From NCBI RefSeq assembly GCF_017313765.1, contig NZ_JAFLNC010000002.1:496001-560000 (forward strand): a DNA stretch of 64,000 nucleotides. The letters are read 5' to 3'. The notes below the pieces were generated by a model. That model was not told the origin of the DNA. It ran no database searches and saw only the letters and a list, made by a program, of their open reading frames with translations. A program made the translations under genes and the position numbers. Of this stretch, positions 42,606 through 49,789 are shown in pieces. The stretch's first letter is position 1; the number at the start of each line of letters is the position of its first letter. The DNA comes from Sneathiella sedimenti (GTDB lineage: Bacteria > Pseudomonadota > Alphaproteobacteria > Sneathiellales > Sneathiellaceae).

Positions 42606-42634
42606 AGAAATGGTCGGGGTGAGAGGATTCGAAC
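42606..42634 (+). repeat. att left: 29-base direct repeat, truncated copy of tRNA-Pro 3' end
   Basis: Identical over 29 bases with 49708-49736; the next base differs (T here, C at the tRNA). It includes the CCA and acceptor 3' half plus part of the T arm of tRNA-Pro on the minus strand. Confidence 0.93.
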
Positions 42635-42717: not shown

Positions 42718-42889
42718 CCTTTAAGCGTTCGTCCACATACTTTAAGAACCCATCGGCTTATTTAGTTTTGGGGTATTCATAATGGACTCAGGTAATGCTA
42801 GAGCTTTATTTAGATAAATGAGAGATTCAGTATTTAGCATAAATTGAACCTTTGATATGGGCGAACTGCTTAACTCAGGGACAACAAGT

Positions 42890-43474
42890 ATGAGTACGGC
42901 AAATGATCAGCATAAGGAGTTTGCTTTGAGTGCACATCCTCAAAGCTGGTTCATTGTAGCTGACAATCTTCACAGTCAAGCGTTCAAGTTATATGGCCAG
43001 CGCGGTATGTCATATTATAGTTTGCGTATAGGAGATGAGGTTCGCCGCTGGGATGCCATAAGCAAGTCTGTTTTTCTATTATGTGGATTCGCGCTGGAGA
43101 ATGCTATTAAAGCTTTCCTTGTGTTTGAGAATCCGCAGTGGGTGTCTAATGGAAGGCTTGCAAAGCAGTTGAAAAATCACTCACTTACTGAGCTGTCTAG
43201 TCTTAGTGATACGATCCCATATAAATATAAGTACAATCGCATACTAAGAGTATTCGAAAGTGGTCTTGAAAGTTGGGCTCGGTATCCGTGCACACTTACC
43301 ATTGACACTCTAAAAGAAGAACCTCAAAACTTGGAAGAAGTATGGCCAAGCTATTGTAAACTAATTACCGCTTATGGACGAAGACTTGAACGGCTCTTGG
43401 GAACTGAGTGGGTCGGCCCACATGGGATCACAGGCTCAGTTGAAACCTCGGGCCATTTTTTCAGCATAAAATAG
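42890..43474 (+). CDS. HEPN-like domain protein
   Basis: A 194-residue protein with the HEPN pattern of two-long-helix segments: LLCGFALENAIKAFLVFENPQWVSNGR and, in the next helix, AKQLKNHSLTELSSLSDTIPYKYKYNRILRVFESGLESWARYP. The LENxIKAFL plus HSLTEL combination is typical of HEPN-like proteins, which include abortive-infection and toxin RNases. The catalytic Rx4-6H motif is not clear, so RNase activity is uncertain. Start at the ATG at 42890 (AGGGA eight bases upstream). Its neighbour is an Mrr-type nuclease 203 bases downstream, on the same strand. Confidence 0.6.
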   Translation: MSTANDQHKEFALSAHPQSWFIVADNLHSQAFKLYGQRGMSYYSLRIGDEVRRWDAISKSVFLLCGFALENAIKAFLVFENPQWVSNGRLAKQLKNHSLTELSSLSDTIPYKYKYNRILRVFESGLESWARYPCTLTIDTLKEEPQNLEEVWPSYCKLITAYGRRLERLLGTEWVGPHGITGSVETSGHFFSIK

Positions 43475-43677
43475 AATATGTCTTCATGCATCATAGGGTT
43501 TGATAGCGAACACTATTATGACCTAGTTTGGGCGATACTTTGCCTTGTCGATCTCGAATCGCGCAGTTCTTGTGATCGAGACACGTGTCGTTGTGCTAAG
43601 AATTTGTTTCGATATTGTGGCTCGATAACATCCATAACTTCGGTGCCTTTTCGCAGCCAAGCCTTTGAGGAAAAACA

Positions 43678-44676
43678 ATGACAATGACCAAAAAGGTAAT
43701 TAGGGCGAACATACACAGGTATATTAAGAGTGGGAAGTTGGTCGCTGTTTATGGTGCGGTTAAGGGCGTGGGTGTAACTGTGCTCGAGTTATCCGATGAT
43801 ATGACCGCTATCACTAAAATACGAACTCCTAAATACCTACAGTACAGCAAACTAGCTCCGACAAAATATTTGCTCGAGATTGAGGAGACGCCTCTGCCTG
43901 ACAATATGCGATCAATCCACCGCATAAGAACTTTGACAGAGGCCGATACGGAAAAAAAACGTTGGGCGAAAACAGAGTCACTTGAAGACTTACCTGTATC
44001 ACCTCATGAGGAAGTTACAGAAGAGGAATTAGTTTGGGCAGGGAAAAGGGAAGGTAATCTATTTTGCAAAGCCGTTTTAGTATTGGTTTCTGGTGTAACA
44101 GCATATTGGGCATACTCTGGTCTCTCTGAGAATGGCTACTATAGTTTATATTGGTTGTTAGCCACAGCAATTGCTGGCTGGTTTTGCATTGTAGTTCCTT
44201 GGAAGTTCTCTAAAGCGCCAAAGGAAGAAAAACTTGCTCAGTTGAAGGAGTATAAATCATGGCTTCGGCAAAAGGCTAGTGATCGTGACTTGGCCTTTTT
44301 AACAGACTTTGAGAGATCTCTAAAAGACTATTCTACTTGGAAAAATCTGTCTCCTATGGAGTTTGAATTTGCGATATCACTTAGGCTGAACAATGAAGGC
44401 TATAGTACTAAGGTTACGCAATACTCCAATGATGGTGGTATAGATTTGGAAGGCTTTGATAATCATGGCAATCCAGTAATTGTGCAGGTAAAACAATTTA
44501 ATAACAAAGTAGGTGTTGCTGTGGTCCGGGAGATGATTGGTATCAGAAAGAATCGTAATGAAAATCCGAGGACAATTATTTATTCACTATTAGGATTTAC
44601 TAGGGGGGCTATAGATTTGGCTCAGAAGGAAAATATTGAGCTGCGAAATATAAAAGCAGAAATACTAGATGTATAA
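43678..44676 (+). CDS. membrane-anchored Mrr-type restriction endonuclease-like protein
   Basis: A 332-residue protein with two membrane helices (about 127-146 and 152-172) and a C-terminal PD-(D/E)xK nuclease domain of Mrr type. Catalytic set: E228/E230 in SPMEFEFAISLRL, D256 in NDGGIDLEG, and Q270-x-K272 in IVQVKQF, which is the QxK variant of the Mrr catalytic core, followed by VGVAVVREMIGI. The nuclease is thus tethered to the membrane with the catalytic domain likely in the cytoplasm. GAGGAAAAACA precedes the ATG. No methyltransferase is adjacent, so it is probably a modification-dependent or membrane-triggered nuclease. Confidence 0.85.
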   Translation: MTMTKKVIRANIHRYIKSGKLVAVYGAVKGVGVTVLELSDDMTAITKIRTPKYLQYSKLAPTKYLLEIEETPLPDNMRSIHRIRTLTEADTEKKRWAKTESLEDLPVSPHEEVTEEELVWAGKREGNLFCKAVLVLVSGVTAYWAYSGLSENGYYSLYWLLATAIAGWFCIVVPWKFSKAPKEEKLAQLKEYKSWLRQKASDRDLAFLTDFERSLKDYSTWKNLSPMEFEFAISLRLNNEGYSTKVTQYSNDGGIDLEGFDNHGNPVIVQVKQFNNKVGVAVVREMIGIRKNRNENPRTIIYSLLGFTRGAIDLAQKENIELRNIKAEILDV

Positions 44677-44777: not shown

Positions 44778-45323
44778 TCAGTATTTCAAGATACGATAAA
44801 CTGAAGCTCTGCCAATCCCAAGTTCTTTGGCGATCTCAGTAGGTTTCTTCCCTTCACGTACGAGCTTATTCACTTCATCCGCTTTCGCCCTCGCAGTAGG
44901 TTTCCGCCCCTTGTATTTCCCTTCACTCTTAGCCTTGGCTATACCCTCTCTCTGTCTTTCCAGCATGATCTGTCTCTCAAACTGGCTAACTGCTCCGAGT
45001 AGGTTTAGCACAAGCTCTCCAGTAGCATTGCTTGTATCTATCCCGAGGTTGAGAATTTGTAGGTGAGCGCCCTTGGCCTTTATGGCCTCAACGATTTCCC
45101 CAAGGTGCCTCATAGAGCGGGCTAGGCGGTCTAACTTGGTTACCACCAGGCTATCGCCCTCCCTTAGGTAATCAAGGGCCTGTGAGAGCTCCTGACGCTC
45201 TTCTACAGACGATACCTGCTCCTTGTAGACCTTCTCGCAGCCGTGAGCCTTAAGCTCCTCTAACTGGGCTTCGAAGCCCGCGACCTGTTCAAGAGTCGAC
45301 GTTCTTGCATAACCAACCTTCAT
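44778..45323 (-). CDS. serine recombinase (resolvase/invertase family)
   Basis: A 181-residue small serine recombinase of the Tn3-resolvase/Hin/Gin class. Nucleophile S9 in GYARTSTLEQ, the motif DSLVVTKLDRLARSMRHL, and the C-terminal helix-turn-helix VNKLVREGKKPTEIAKELGIGRASVYRILKY. I start at the ATG at 45323; the upstream TTG at 45389 belongs to a TTGACA promoter box. It could invert a segment of the element or resolve a cointegrate. No matching inverted target pair was found. Confidence 0.93.
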   Translation of the reverse strand: MKVGYARTSTLEQVAGFEAQLEELKAHGCEKVYKEQVSSVEERQELSQALDYLREGDSLVVTKLDRLARSMRHLGEIVEAIKAKGAHLQILNLGIDTSNATGELVLNLLGAVSQFERQIMLERQREGIAKAKSEGKYKGRKPTARAKADEVNKLVREGKKPTEIAKELGIGRASVYRILKY

Positions 45324-45359
45324 GATCACATAATCCCCGCATGTACCAATAGATTCAAG

Positions 45360-45389
45360 ACTATGTGAGATTATTGTCTCAAATGTCAA
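45360..45389 (-). promoter_or_regulatory. sigma-70-like promoter and operator of the serine recombinase
   Basis: TTGACA (45389-45384), 18-base spacer, CATAGT (45365-45360). The spacer holds the inverted repeat TGAGAN6TCTCA (45366-45381), with a further GTCTCA on the minus strand at 45407-45402. Such a cluster around the promoter suggests autoregulation or a recombination (res-like) site. Confidence 0.5.
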
Positions 45390-45482: not shown

Positions 45483-45677
45483 CTAGAGAGTTCCCTTAAA
45501 ACGCCGAATAACGCCTCTCGCGTTGTATCGCCACCGGTGATCACTGGGCGAGCAAGGCATAAACACGGTACCTTGCTGACACCTTACTGCCCAATGTTTG
45601 CCGCGTGACTCAGTCCCTAATATGGTAAGCCCTTCTTCCGCACACAACTTGATGCACTCTCTAAAATGCTTACGCAT
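45483..45677 (-). CDS. small protein, HicA-like
   Basis: A 64-residue protein with RGKHWAVRCQQGTVFMPCSPSDHRWRYNARGVIRRF, a His-containing strand and RxxIRR-type helix reminiscent of HicA-like RNA-binding toxins and small phage proteins. GGAGGG lies eight bases before its ATG at 45677, which supports a real gene. No HicB partner is next to it, so toxin function is unproven. The RAMA-like gene at 45693 begins 15 bases away on the same strand. Confidence 0.5.
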   Translation of the reverse strand: MRKHFRECIKLCAEEGLTILGTESRGKHWAVRCQQGTVFMPCSPSDHRWRYNARGVIRRFKGTL

Positions 45678-45692
45678 TTTGTTACCCTCCCC

Positions 45693-46160
45693 CTAGCCGC
45701 GAAGATCGTTGGCGAACTTCCAACCACCTTCCCCTGGAAAGTTAATATAGATGTCGCGCCAAGCATTACGACTAGTGTTATTGGCGACCTTTCGAGCAAA
45801 TTCTGATGGCGTCACACTGTCTCCATTGAAGAGCAATTTTTCATGATGAACTTCAGCATAATAATGGGTGCCGCGATAGGTCATACGTATGCGTGTTCCG
45901 TTAGGTAAGAACACTTTCTGCCATTGAAACCCCCTGTTAGGATTTCCGTATTTGTCCAGATATTCTTCATCCTGTTGCTCGGTGTGTTTTTCTATATATT
46001 CCGCCGACCAAATATTCGGATCTCCTTCAGTTGCCTCAAGAAATCCCTCAATCTGATTTTCAATGTAGTTCGCCACATTGGCACGCCCTGAGCGCCGAAC
46101 AAGTTCAGCATACAAGTCTACATGGAGGGGGACGTAAATGTAATCTGTTGGCTGCGTCAT
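45693..46160 (-). CDS. RAMA/DUF4357-like protein of unknown function
   Basis: A 155-residue protein. The C-terminal half NGTRIRMTYRGTHYYAEVHHEKLLFNGDSVTPSEFARKVANNTSRNAWRDIYI has the small beta-hairpin plus SPSEFA helix of the RAMA/DUF4357 domains, which are found next to restriction or methylation systems. The N-terminal helix region (YVPLHVDLYAELVRRSGRANVANYIENQIEGFL) looks like a ribbon-helix-helix DNA-binding segment. It is transcribed from a promoter overlapping the four repeats at 46176-46254, so it is a good candidate for the repeat-binding autoregulator. Confidence 0.6.
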   Translation of the reverse strand: MTQPTDYIYVPLHVDLYAELVRRSGRANVANYIENQIEGFLEATEGDPNIWSAEYIEKHTEQQDEEYLDKYGNPNRGFQWQKVFLPNGTRIRMTYRGTHYYAEVHHEKLLFNGDSVTPSEFARKVANNTSRNAWRDIYINFPGEGGWKFANDLRG

Positions 46161-46623: not shown

Positions 46624-47628
46624 CTAAAAGTCATCTAGCCCTTCATCATCTTCTTTTACGCTCTTGGCTTCATCGAAACAGGTGTCGACCTCCTCCCTTG
46701 TTATCAGGTTTGCTTCATAGGCCTTCTTAAGCTGCTTCGACACCTCCCCCTTGGACCAGCCAAGGCCCTCGGCCACTTCTCTTTGATTGGTATAATTACG
46801 TGTCCGTATTGCCCGAGCGACATCATATGCTTTCCCTACCGCGAGTATATCGTAACTCCATCGACCATCTTCATCCAACTGGACGCCACGAGTTTCAGTC
46901 TCAGCCGACCTCATTCCCCTGTACTTCTGAAAGACCACCTTAAATGAGGCTCCGCCAGACGACTGGGCTCCTTCGGGCGCTTCTAGCATTATGTTTGAAC
47001 TTAAGAGAACACTCAGGATTTGAGAGCCCCTATAACCATCACTATTTACACTATTCCCCTTCCGGCTATGGTGAACCATAATCGGGGTGCATCCCAGCCT
47101 TTTGATCTTTCTCAGGAGTTCGTTTACCGGACGCCATGCTGATGCATCATTTTCGTTCTCTACTCCAGCCAGCGTCGATAGATTGTCTAGGATGACTAAG
47201 TCTATCTTTTCATTCTTAATCCGATTGATGATCCTTTGATGGTCGTCTGGTTCCGCTAGATCGGGCCAGTTCACATTGTCCGCTTGACCTTGAAAGGGTA
47301 AAAAGGAAAGGTTCGAGCTTGCTGCCTTGAGGTCTAGATTTTCAATGGATCCTGAAAGCAATATAGCTCTATCCCTGAGATCACTCATATCCATCTCTCC
47401 GTCGACAATTAGAACTTTGCTACAACCGTCAGCTTTCCAGCCCAGGTATTCTCCGCCTCCTGCAACTGCGATAGCAATAGACATTGCAAACATGGATTTA
47501 CCCACGCCGCTAGGGGCATAGATCATATTAATTTGCTGGTTTGTCAGCCAACTACCAAGCAATGGTTTGGGGTTAGGGATGTCAGTATTCATTAGTTCGC
47601 CCATGGTTTGATAGGTGAGGTCTGTCAT
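46624..47628 (-). CDS. RepA-like AAA ATPase (plasmid replication helicase-like)
   Basis: A 334-residue RecA-fold ATPase of the AAA_25/RepA-helicase group. Walker A IYAPSGVGKSMFAMSIAIAVAGGGEYLGW starting at 36, Walker B LVILDNLSTLAG, and motif CTPIMVHHSRKGNSVNSDGYRGSQIL, which is the RepA/DnaB-type segment. A C-terminal winged-helix-like part (TNQREVAEGLGWSKGEVSKQLKKAYEANL) probably binds DNA. It supports autonomous replication of the excised element. A ribosome site AAGGAAAAGC precedes its ATG. The four repeats lie 370-450 bases downstream of its stop. Confidence 0.85.
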   Translation of the reverse strand: MTDLTYQTMGELMNTDIPNPKPLLGSWLTNQQINMIYAPSGVGKSMFAMSIAIAVAGGGEYLGWKADGCSKVLIVDGEMDMSDLRDRAILLSGSIENLDLKAASSNLSFLPFQGQADNVNWPDLAEPDDHQRIINRIKNEKIDLVILDNLSTLAGVENENDASAWRPVNELLRKIKRLGCTPIMVHHSRKGNSVNSDGYRGSQILSVLLSSNIMLEAPEGAQSSGGASFKVVFQKYRGMRSAETETRGVQLDEDGRWSYDILAVGKAYDVARAIRTRNYTNQREVAEGLGWSKGEVSKQLKKAYEANLITREEVDTCFDEAKSVKEDDEGLDDF

Positions 47629-48284: not shown

Positions 48285-49637
48285 CTAGCTTTTCCATATT
48301 GCGCTTAGTTCCCCTAGTTCCGGATCAATCTTCTTGATGTACTCGAGTATCCTATCTTCGTCTTGATATCCTCTGTTATAGACAGAAGATGCTAGAGTAG
48401 GTAGGGAATGCCCCATTAGGCGCGCCCAGTGGATCGGATTGGTCCCAGCTTTTTCACAAGCAATGCTGAAGGCTCGTCTCAAGGAATGAAAATCTACTGG
48501 CTCGTCTTTTAGAGCTTCACGCCGAAGCCGGTTTATTACTTTCTGTAGTCGCTCGTATCGCTTGCCGCCTCGCTTAGCGGGTTTTACATCTGCGAAAATA
48601 GGGTGCTCCGGATCGGCGCTGCTGCGCCTTCTAAGCACATCTAATGCCTCCTCGCTTATGACAGGCATGACGCGTTCATTGTTATCGGTCTTTCCTCCAG
48701 TAATATGGAGCCAAATGCATCCTCTACCTTTGTCTACTTTAAGTTTTCCAGAGGTGAGACTACAGATATCTTCAGCTCGTACTCCAGTATGCCACCCTAG
48801 AATAATCATATCGATCATTGCTTGGCTATATTTGCTTGAAGATGCTTTTGCAGCCTCGATCCACACCTGAGCTTCCCTTTTTGTCAGCGCCCTTTTCTGT
48901 ACCCTGCTTTCTCTGATGCTGCTAACGGTCCTGTATTGCCTTCGCCATATGTCAGTCTTTCCCTCCTCAATCAATTGATAATGGTCCAACCATTCCCAGA
49001 ACCCGATTAACGCTGTAATTTTCTTTTTTAGTGTACGGACGGCTAGTAGTTTTCCCGTCTTGTTGCTTGGGGTTTCTTTAAGAAACGCTATGAACGAGCT
49101 GGCAGTATTTCTATCAATATCCTGTACTGGTATATCGTTACTCCAAGCTTTAAAGGCTTCCACGGTGGTCCTATAGTCGTCAACGGTATGGCCTTTTCGG
49201 CCATCTCTCATGATCTCGTTCAGCCAATTTTCGGCATGAACGGAAACAGGGACGGCTTGCTTGGTAGCAATCCTGTAATAAGCCTGTGCGGCTGTTAGGC
49301 CCTTTCGCTGCTCGTAAGCGGCCGCAAAATCACTAATGATAAAAGGATGCTCTTCATTCTTGGGATCATAGTCCTTGGCGAGCTCTAAGGGGTCTGGAAT
49401 TTCGTTTTTATCGAGCGCTGCTAAAGCGGAGTTGATCTGACCTATTGCGTCAAGCTTTCGCTTGTTGGCTTCCGCAAGGTCCCTTGTCCCAAGGCCTCTA
49501 ACGATTTCCTTCTTAATGCCTGAGGTGGACCCGAAATGCGCTGCGGCTTTCTTCTGGAGTCGTTTGGGGACGGTAACAACTACGGCCCAGCCTTTGCCGC
49601 GTTTCCTGAGGTATCTTGTGTTCATATCGTCGCTCAT
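48285..49637 (-). CDS. tyrosine recombinase integrase (tRNA-associated)
   Basis: A 450-residue phage-type integrase. N-terminal domain of DUF6538 type (RYLRKRGKGWAVVVTVPKRLQKKAAAHFG), SAM-like core-binding region about 120-215, then the catalytic domain: Arg in WHTGVRAEDICSLT, HxxR in FHSLRRAFSIACEKAG, GH in MGHSLPTLASSVYNRG with nucleophile Tyr. The ATG at 49637 is chosen; a TTG at 49658 also exists but is further into the att side. It is 70 bases from the tRNA-Pro repeat, which is its expected attachment site. It overlaps with the candidate arm site at 49638. Confidence 0.95.
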   Translation of the reverse strand: MSDDMNTRYLRKRGKGWAVVVTVPKRLQKKAAAHFGSTSGIKKEIVRGLGTRDLAEANKRKLDAIGQINSALAALDKNEIPDPLELAKDYDPKNEEHPFIISDFAAAYEQRKGLTAAQAYYRIATKQAVPVSVHAENWLNEIMRDGRKGHTVDDYRTTVEAFKAWSNDIPVQDIDRNTASSFIAFLKETPSNKTGKLLAVRTLKKKITALIGFWEWLDHYQLIEEGKTDIWRRQYRTVSSIRESRVQKRALTKREAQVWIEAAKASSSKYSQAMIDMIILGWHTGVRAEDICSLTSGKLKVDKGRGCIWLHITGGKTDNNERVMPVISEEALDVLRRRSSADPEHPIFADVKPAKRGGKRYERLQKVINRLRREALKDEPVDFHSLRRAFSIACEKAGTNPIHWARLMGHSLPTLASSVYNRGYQDEDRILEYIKKIDPELGELSAIWKS

Positions 49638-49648
49638 ACATGTAAGGT
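49638..49648. promoter_or_regulatory. integrase arm-type site at right end (inverted copy of left site)
   Basis: ACATGTAAGGT, the reverse complement of ACCTTACATGT at 42707-42717. It lies immediately before the integrase start. An 11-base match at both ends of a 7 kb element is unlikely by chance within 100 bases of each att. Confidence 0.5.
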
Positions 49649-49707
49649 TACAGTACAAATCCCTACACGTACAATCGAAATTATATGAATAACATCAATA
49701 TCTTAGA

Positions 49708-49789
<82 letters not shown>

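Follow-up and report, generated by a model that had tools for sequence, protein, structure and literature searches.

The window, by which we mean the whole stretch of 64,000 nucleotides analysed here, encodes a protein that is probably a membrane-tethered Mrr-type nuclease with a defensive role. It is a variant of the known 2TM-Mrr proteins, not a wholly new enzyme, and what sets it apart from them appears, from its sequence, to be a new N-terminal domain. The full reading, in which a defence nuclease travels as cargo of a small integrative element, is tethered to the inner membrane by a hairpin and cuts DNA with its Mrr-type core, has in our judgement about an even chance of being right.

The open reading frame of the nuclease starts with ATG, and GAGG lies 7 nt upstream. 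Its product consists of a beta-rich N-terminal domain, a disordered stretch, a hydrophobic hairpin, linker helices and a C-terminal Mrr_cat domain. The latter matches the Pfam profile PF04471 over residues 222-324 (E 1.3e-16, 61.1 bits versus a cut-off of 21). In the AlphaFold2 model, computed from an alignment of 18 sequences (the window protein and 17 relatives), this region forms an alpha-beta-beta-beta-alpha-beta core with pLDDT of about 80-97. Foldseek and VIA-align place it closest to AF1548 (Z 12.2) and EndoMS/NucS (Z 11.8) in the PDB, with further matches to AspBHI (Z 9.9), LlaBIII (Z 9.7) and MspJI (Z 9.4). These PDB matches are PD-(D/E)xK nucleases, and the Mrr-type PD-(D/E)xK core claimed in the sequence-only reading holds. 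Weak Pfam matches to RRG7 and NucS reflect the shared fold only. Most of the catalytic set proposed earlier (E228/E230, D256 and QxK) is equally firm: E230, D256, Q270 and K272 are identical in 18 out of 18 aligned sequences. By contrast, position 228 is occupied by N, T or Q in most of them, and 'E228/E230' should accordingly be E230 alone. By each feature tested (profile, fold and catalytic residues), the window protein is a member of Mrr_cat.

Table. Features of the nuclease, of the element that carries it and of paired genes in relatives. Coordinates refer to the window unless a locus is named.
Feature	Coordinates	Strand	Evidence or remark
Membrane-tethered Mrr-type nuclease gene (probable)	43678..44676	+	332 aa; ORF list, Pfam, AF2 model, conservation
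N-terminal beta-rich domain, residues 4-86	43687..43935	+	AF2 six strands, pLDDT about 46-73
First membrane helix (predicted), residues 128-146	44059..44115	+	KD 1.56; AF2 helix
Second membrane helix (predicted), residues 154-178	44137..44211	+	KD 1.75; AF2 helix
Mrr_cat PD-(D/E)xK core, residues 222-324	44341..44649	+	Pfam, fold matches, conservation of E230, D256, Q270, K272
29-bp direct repeat, left end of element	42606..42634	+	exact copy of 49708-49736
205-aa helical protein, no named family	42857..43474	+	HEPN-like by eye only; no Pfam or PADLOC match
67-aa open frame	43478..43681	+	coordinates alone; opposite strand also open
Serine recombinase (resolvase/invertase) of element	44778..45389	-	PF00239 E 9.4e-39
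155-aa protein, weakly similar to PADLOC PDC-S57	45693..46160	-	E 0.0022
AAA_25 ATPase, replication type	46624..47628	-	PF13481 E 2.8e-28; PHROG primase/helicase matches
Tyrosine integrase of element	48285..49658	-	PF00589 E 2.4e-13; PHROG 1 E 3.1e-30
29-bp direct repeat, right end of element, at tRNA-Pro 3' end	49708..49736	+	
tRNA-Pro(CGG), integration site	49713..49789	-	ARAGORN
2TM-Mrr + NYN-LOTUS loci	L009 3857-5386; L104 4836-6356; L097, L098, L110, L126, L127, L135, L136, L162		

Two membrane helices in the N-terminal half, as the first reading had it, are supported by the AlphaFold2 helices, by hydropathy and by the relatives in the model alignment, 16 of which have two helices before Mrr_cat and the seventeenth one. 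Such a pair is not unusual and not unique to the window protein. A simple hydropathy rule, applied to the 84 other distinct Mrr_cat frames found in 289 genomes from the class, gives eight with at least one helix ahead of the core and four with two, and the closest relatives are strongly enriched: plasmid proteins of Alteromonas, Providencia and Pseudomonas have one to three. In a genome scan with a four-sequence alignment as the query (the alignment of the whole TM group is too diverse to search with), nearly all relatives outside Streptomyces have at least one helix, mostly two, whereas scans with single-protein patterns retrieved no relative from genome contigs, viral contigs or the phage collection. 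The 2TM-Mrr_cat proteins, annotated as 'restriction endonuclease' or 'DUF2034' and found in Alteromonas, on Providencia plasmids, in Dyella, Rhodobacteraceae and Phycisphaerae (L096), share with the window protein the two helices, the FE...D...QxK set and the charge bias, K/R being scarce between the helices and more frequent on either side. They are about 20-37% identical to the window protein, mostly over the core. The majority carry a C-terminal zinc ribbon of the Top1 type, which the window protein lacks, and are devoid of its N-terminal domain. The nearest in layout is the Phycisphaerae protein, with CxxC zinc-ribbon-like pairs, recognised by eye, at its N-terminus, followed by a short hairpin, a long linker and Mrr_cat. 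Thus, the search for this architecture elsewhere succeeded for the two helices before Mrr_cat, but no relative combining the N-domain, the hairpin and Mrr_cat was found. A Rhodobacteraceae contig (L111 588-2549) contains tandem Mrr_cat genes, the second one with a membrane hairpin.

The N-terminal domain distinguishes the window protein also from classical Mrr. In E. coli Mrr, the N-terminal domain is a winged helix that binds DNA (PMC12707154). The Mrr_cat domain with its QxK active site is common to the window protein, E. coli Mrr and type IV modification-dependent enzymes, but E. coli Mrr is without the membrane part and the window protein is without a detected winged helix. The absence of this helix and its replacement by a soluble domain were correctly anticipated: the nuclease has no Pfam match to Mrr_N at E up to 1, and residues 4-86 are modelled as a beta-rich fold, so that identity with classical Mrr was rejected. 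Searches of plasmids, the PDB, the class sample and 398 genomes from the phylum turned up nothing that could credibly be called a homologue of this domain. A match at E 0.009 in a protein that reads by eye as an M16-type peptidase and sub-threshold PDB matches to CHD1 were taken as chance; the PDB structure comparison was swamped by matches of the nuclease core and says little about the fold of the N-domain. Further along the model, residues 93-131 are of low confidence and two additional helices lie between the hairpin and residue 214. The same anatomy would fit a membrane-tethered abortive-infection effector, in which damage to the membrane, or some signal, would be detected by the N-domain or the hairpin and would trigger cleavage that extends to host DNA, so that the cell is killed or stalled. 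The nucleotide-activated nucleases Card1, Can2 and Cdn1 are among the fold neighbours of the core, and the 205-aa protein encoded upstream is a possible RNase-like neighbour. However, fold likeness of the core tells nothing about activation and no known sensor or signal-binding domain was found in the N-domain by Pfam and PDB searches, and we consider such an effector unlikely.

The nuclease gene is cargo of a small integrative element, which spans 7,102 bp between two exact 29-bp repeats; no such repeat pair is expected in shuffles. GC content of the element is 44.7%, versus 56-58% around it. Genomes of the same genus have the right flank and the tRNA-Pro end but not the element, the sole element-like match being 132 bp at 78% in L190, inside the recombinase gene. 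A 64-aa frame on the minus strand (45483-45677) matches PHROG 2089, a group of unknown function (E 3e-6). The 205-aa gene lies upstream of the nuclease gene in the same direction. Its product is helical in a single-sequence fold (pLDDT 38) and matches none of the HEPN families of Pfam at E values up to 1. One homologue (51% identical) is encoded on a Bradyrhizobium plasmid, where the genes nearby include a nucleotidyltransferase, a WYL protein and a ThiF/multiubiquitin cluster. A second one (49%; L195 4956-5573) comes from a viral contig of 42 kb with neighbours that are Mu-like by eye, and the 205-aa protein is taken as mobile cargo. Since no Mrr gene lies beside either homologue, the 205-aa gene may be independent cargo rather than a fixed partner of the nuclease. 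The 67-aa frame between the two genes begins 3 nt past the stop of the 205-aa gene and shares four bases with the start of the nuclease gene; it may be a short coupled gene or a spurious frame.

No recognised defence system is present on the element. Strong PADLOC matches to different systems are found in eight of the 16 relative loci with scanned flanking genes: OloA/OloB of Olokun (L098), an MkoA-like protein with a cytosine methyltransferase (L104), a type IV enzyme (L112), DndF of Dnd (L118), DrmD of DISARM (L126), a type I methyltransferase of type I RM (L135), HamB of Hachiman (L173) and IetA (L096). As a rough control, ten large window genes outside the element gave two weak partial PADLOC matches, this control set being small and of another lineage than the relatives' loci. 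The Alteromonadaceae loci are not fully independent, as they may share one hotspot. Nevertheless, the variety of defence systems beside the relatives supports a defence role. In ten loci, counting the plasmid, the Alteromonadaceae 2TM-Mrr-zinc-ribbon gene is followed directly by a gene with NYN and OST-HTH/LOTUS domains, and the pair is likely a two-gene module of a membrane DNase and an RNase in defence islands. The same genomic contexts bear on the possibility that the nuclease is a maintenance or exclusion factor of the element, directed at rival plasmids or satellites, or involved in the processing of DNA of the element itself. Its location among an integrase, a resolvase and an AAA_25 ATPase and the similar TM-Mrr genes on conjugative plasmids point in this direction, but the relatives are mostly chromosomal and lie beside defence genes rather than an integrase/resolvase/AAA_25 set, which makes such a function improbable.

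Kyte-Doolittle means peak at 1.56 (residues 128-146) and 1.75 (residues 155-173). The pair of peaks is not decisive alone, since both are reached in 26 of 5000 shuffles of the nuclease protein, and the first helix is marginal on its own, with rough insertion energies, from approximate scale values, of about +0.8 for helix 1 and -1.4 for helix 2. The hairpin is also poorly modelled (pLDDT about 47-65). As for topology, K and R are absent from the loop between the helices, the 25 residues that follow the second one contain seven, and both ends of the hairpin are therefore predicted to be cytoplasmic. With about 127 soluble residues ahead of them, the helices lie inside the protein and are not a cleavable N-terminal signal, which answers the objection that they might be cleaved. 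Hydropathy and charges predict that the hairpin anchors the nuclease in the inner membrane, which we regard as very likely, and that the N-domain and the nuclease are cytoplasmic. That the protein is instead a soluble Mrr-type restriction enzyme, its hydrophobic helices forming an internal packing or dimerisation hairpin, would accord with the marginal first segment, its low pLDDT and the shuffles, but is very unlikely given a clearly hydrophobic second helix and the retention in relatives of such a pair, for the most part more hydrophobic and with the same charge bias.

The tethered Mrr-type nuclease has parallels among known systems. SNIPE is a membrane-held nuclease shown to cut entering phage DNA (Nature 2026, PMC13190303). 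The window protein resembles SNIPE in being a single polypeptide and in the high variability of the N-terminal parts, and a membrane anchor with a cytoplasmic nuclease, as in SNIPE (PMC13190303), is predicted for it. It differs in its nuclease, which is Mrr_cat instead of GIY-YIG with DUF4041; the window nuclease has no Pfam match to GIY-YIG and none to DUF4041 at E up to 1, and membership in SNIPE was rejected. The C-terminal Mrr-like domains of the PADLOC candidate PDC-S02 and of ZorD align to the window protein as well (E 7e-10 and 6e-9, respectively). Membership in PDC-S02 would call for alignment along most of a model of 324-390 aa; it was rejected because the best model is matched just at positions 172-298 out of 334, by residues 203-326 of the window protein. 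Membership in ZorD was rejected because the nuclease part alone aligns, with no helicase. The novelty implied by the sequence-only reading was overstated, as Mrr_cat is widely preceded by two helices and the idea of a 'guardian against foreign DNA' had been put forward for the membrane PD-(D/E)xK proteins of COG4741 already in 2005 (PMC1189080). COG4741 resembles the window protein in joining a membrane helix to a cytosolic nuclease, but its core is minimal, related to YraN and built around an ExK motif, and its single helix is N-terminal (PMC1189080).

According to the defence reading, the two-helix hairpin would hold the nuclease at the inner membrane with the N-domain and core facing the cytoplasm, and the Mrr-type PD-(D/E)xK core would, in its presumed defence role, cut incoming DNA. 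The tether may spare the chromosome, being away from the nucleoid, and place the enzyme at the envelope. By analogy, cleavage of DNA at the entry point is plausible. The intact core, the charge pattern of the hairpin, the location on mobile cargo, the equally tethered relatives beside defence systems and the SNIPE parallel support this reading, and it is weakened by the low-confidence model of the N-domain, the marginal first helix, the failure to find a relative of the same full layout, the limits of the control set and of the Alteromonadaceae loci, and an island of its own without a recognised defence system. A bolder and rather doubtful proposal sees in the N-domain a new module for sensing invaders or the membrane. 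The tethered Mrr would then be a counterpart of SNIPE in defence at the entry point, assembled from entirely different components, and would form with the Alteromonadaceae 2TM-Mrr + NYN-LOTUS pair a broad uncharacterised class of membrane Mrr defences.

In the literature found, there is apparently no experimental test of 2TM-Mrr proteins in defence islands. If the defence reading is true, membrane tethering of nucleases against entering DNA would be a testable example of convergence, since no fewer than two unrelated folds (GIY-YIG and Mrr) would have been put to this use. The 2TM-Mrr class as a whole, rather than this single copy, is the attractive target and would be easy to assay.
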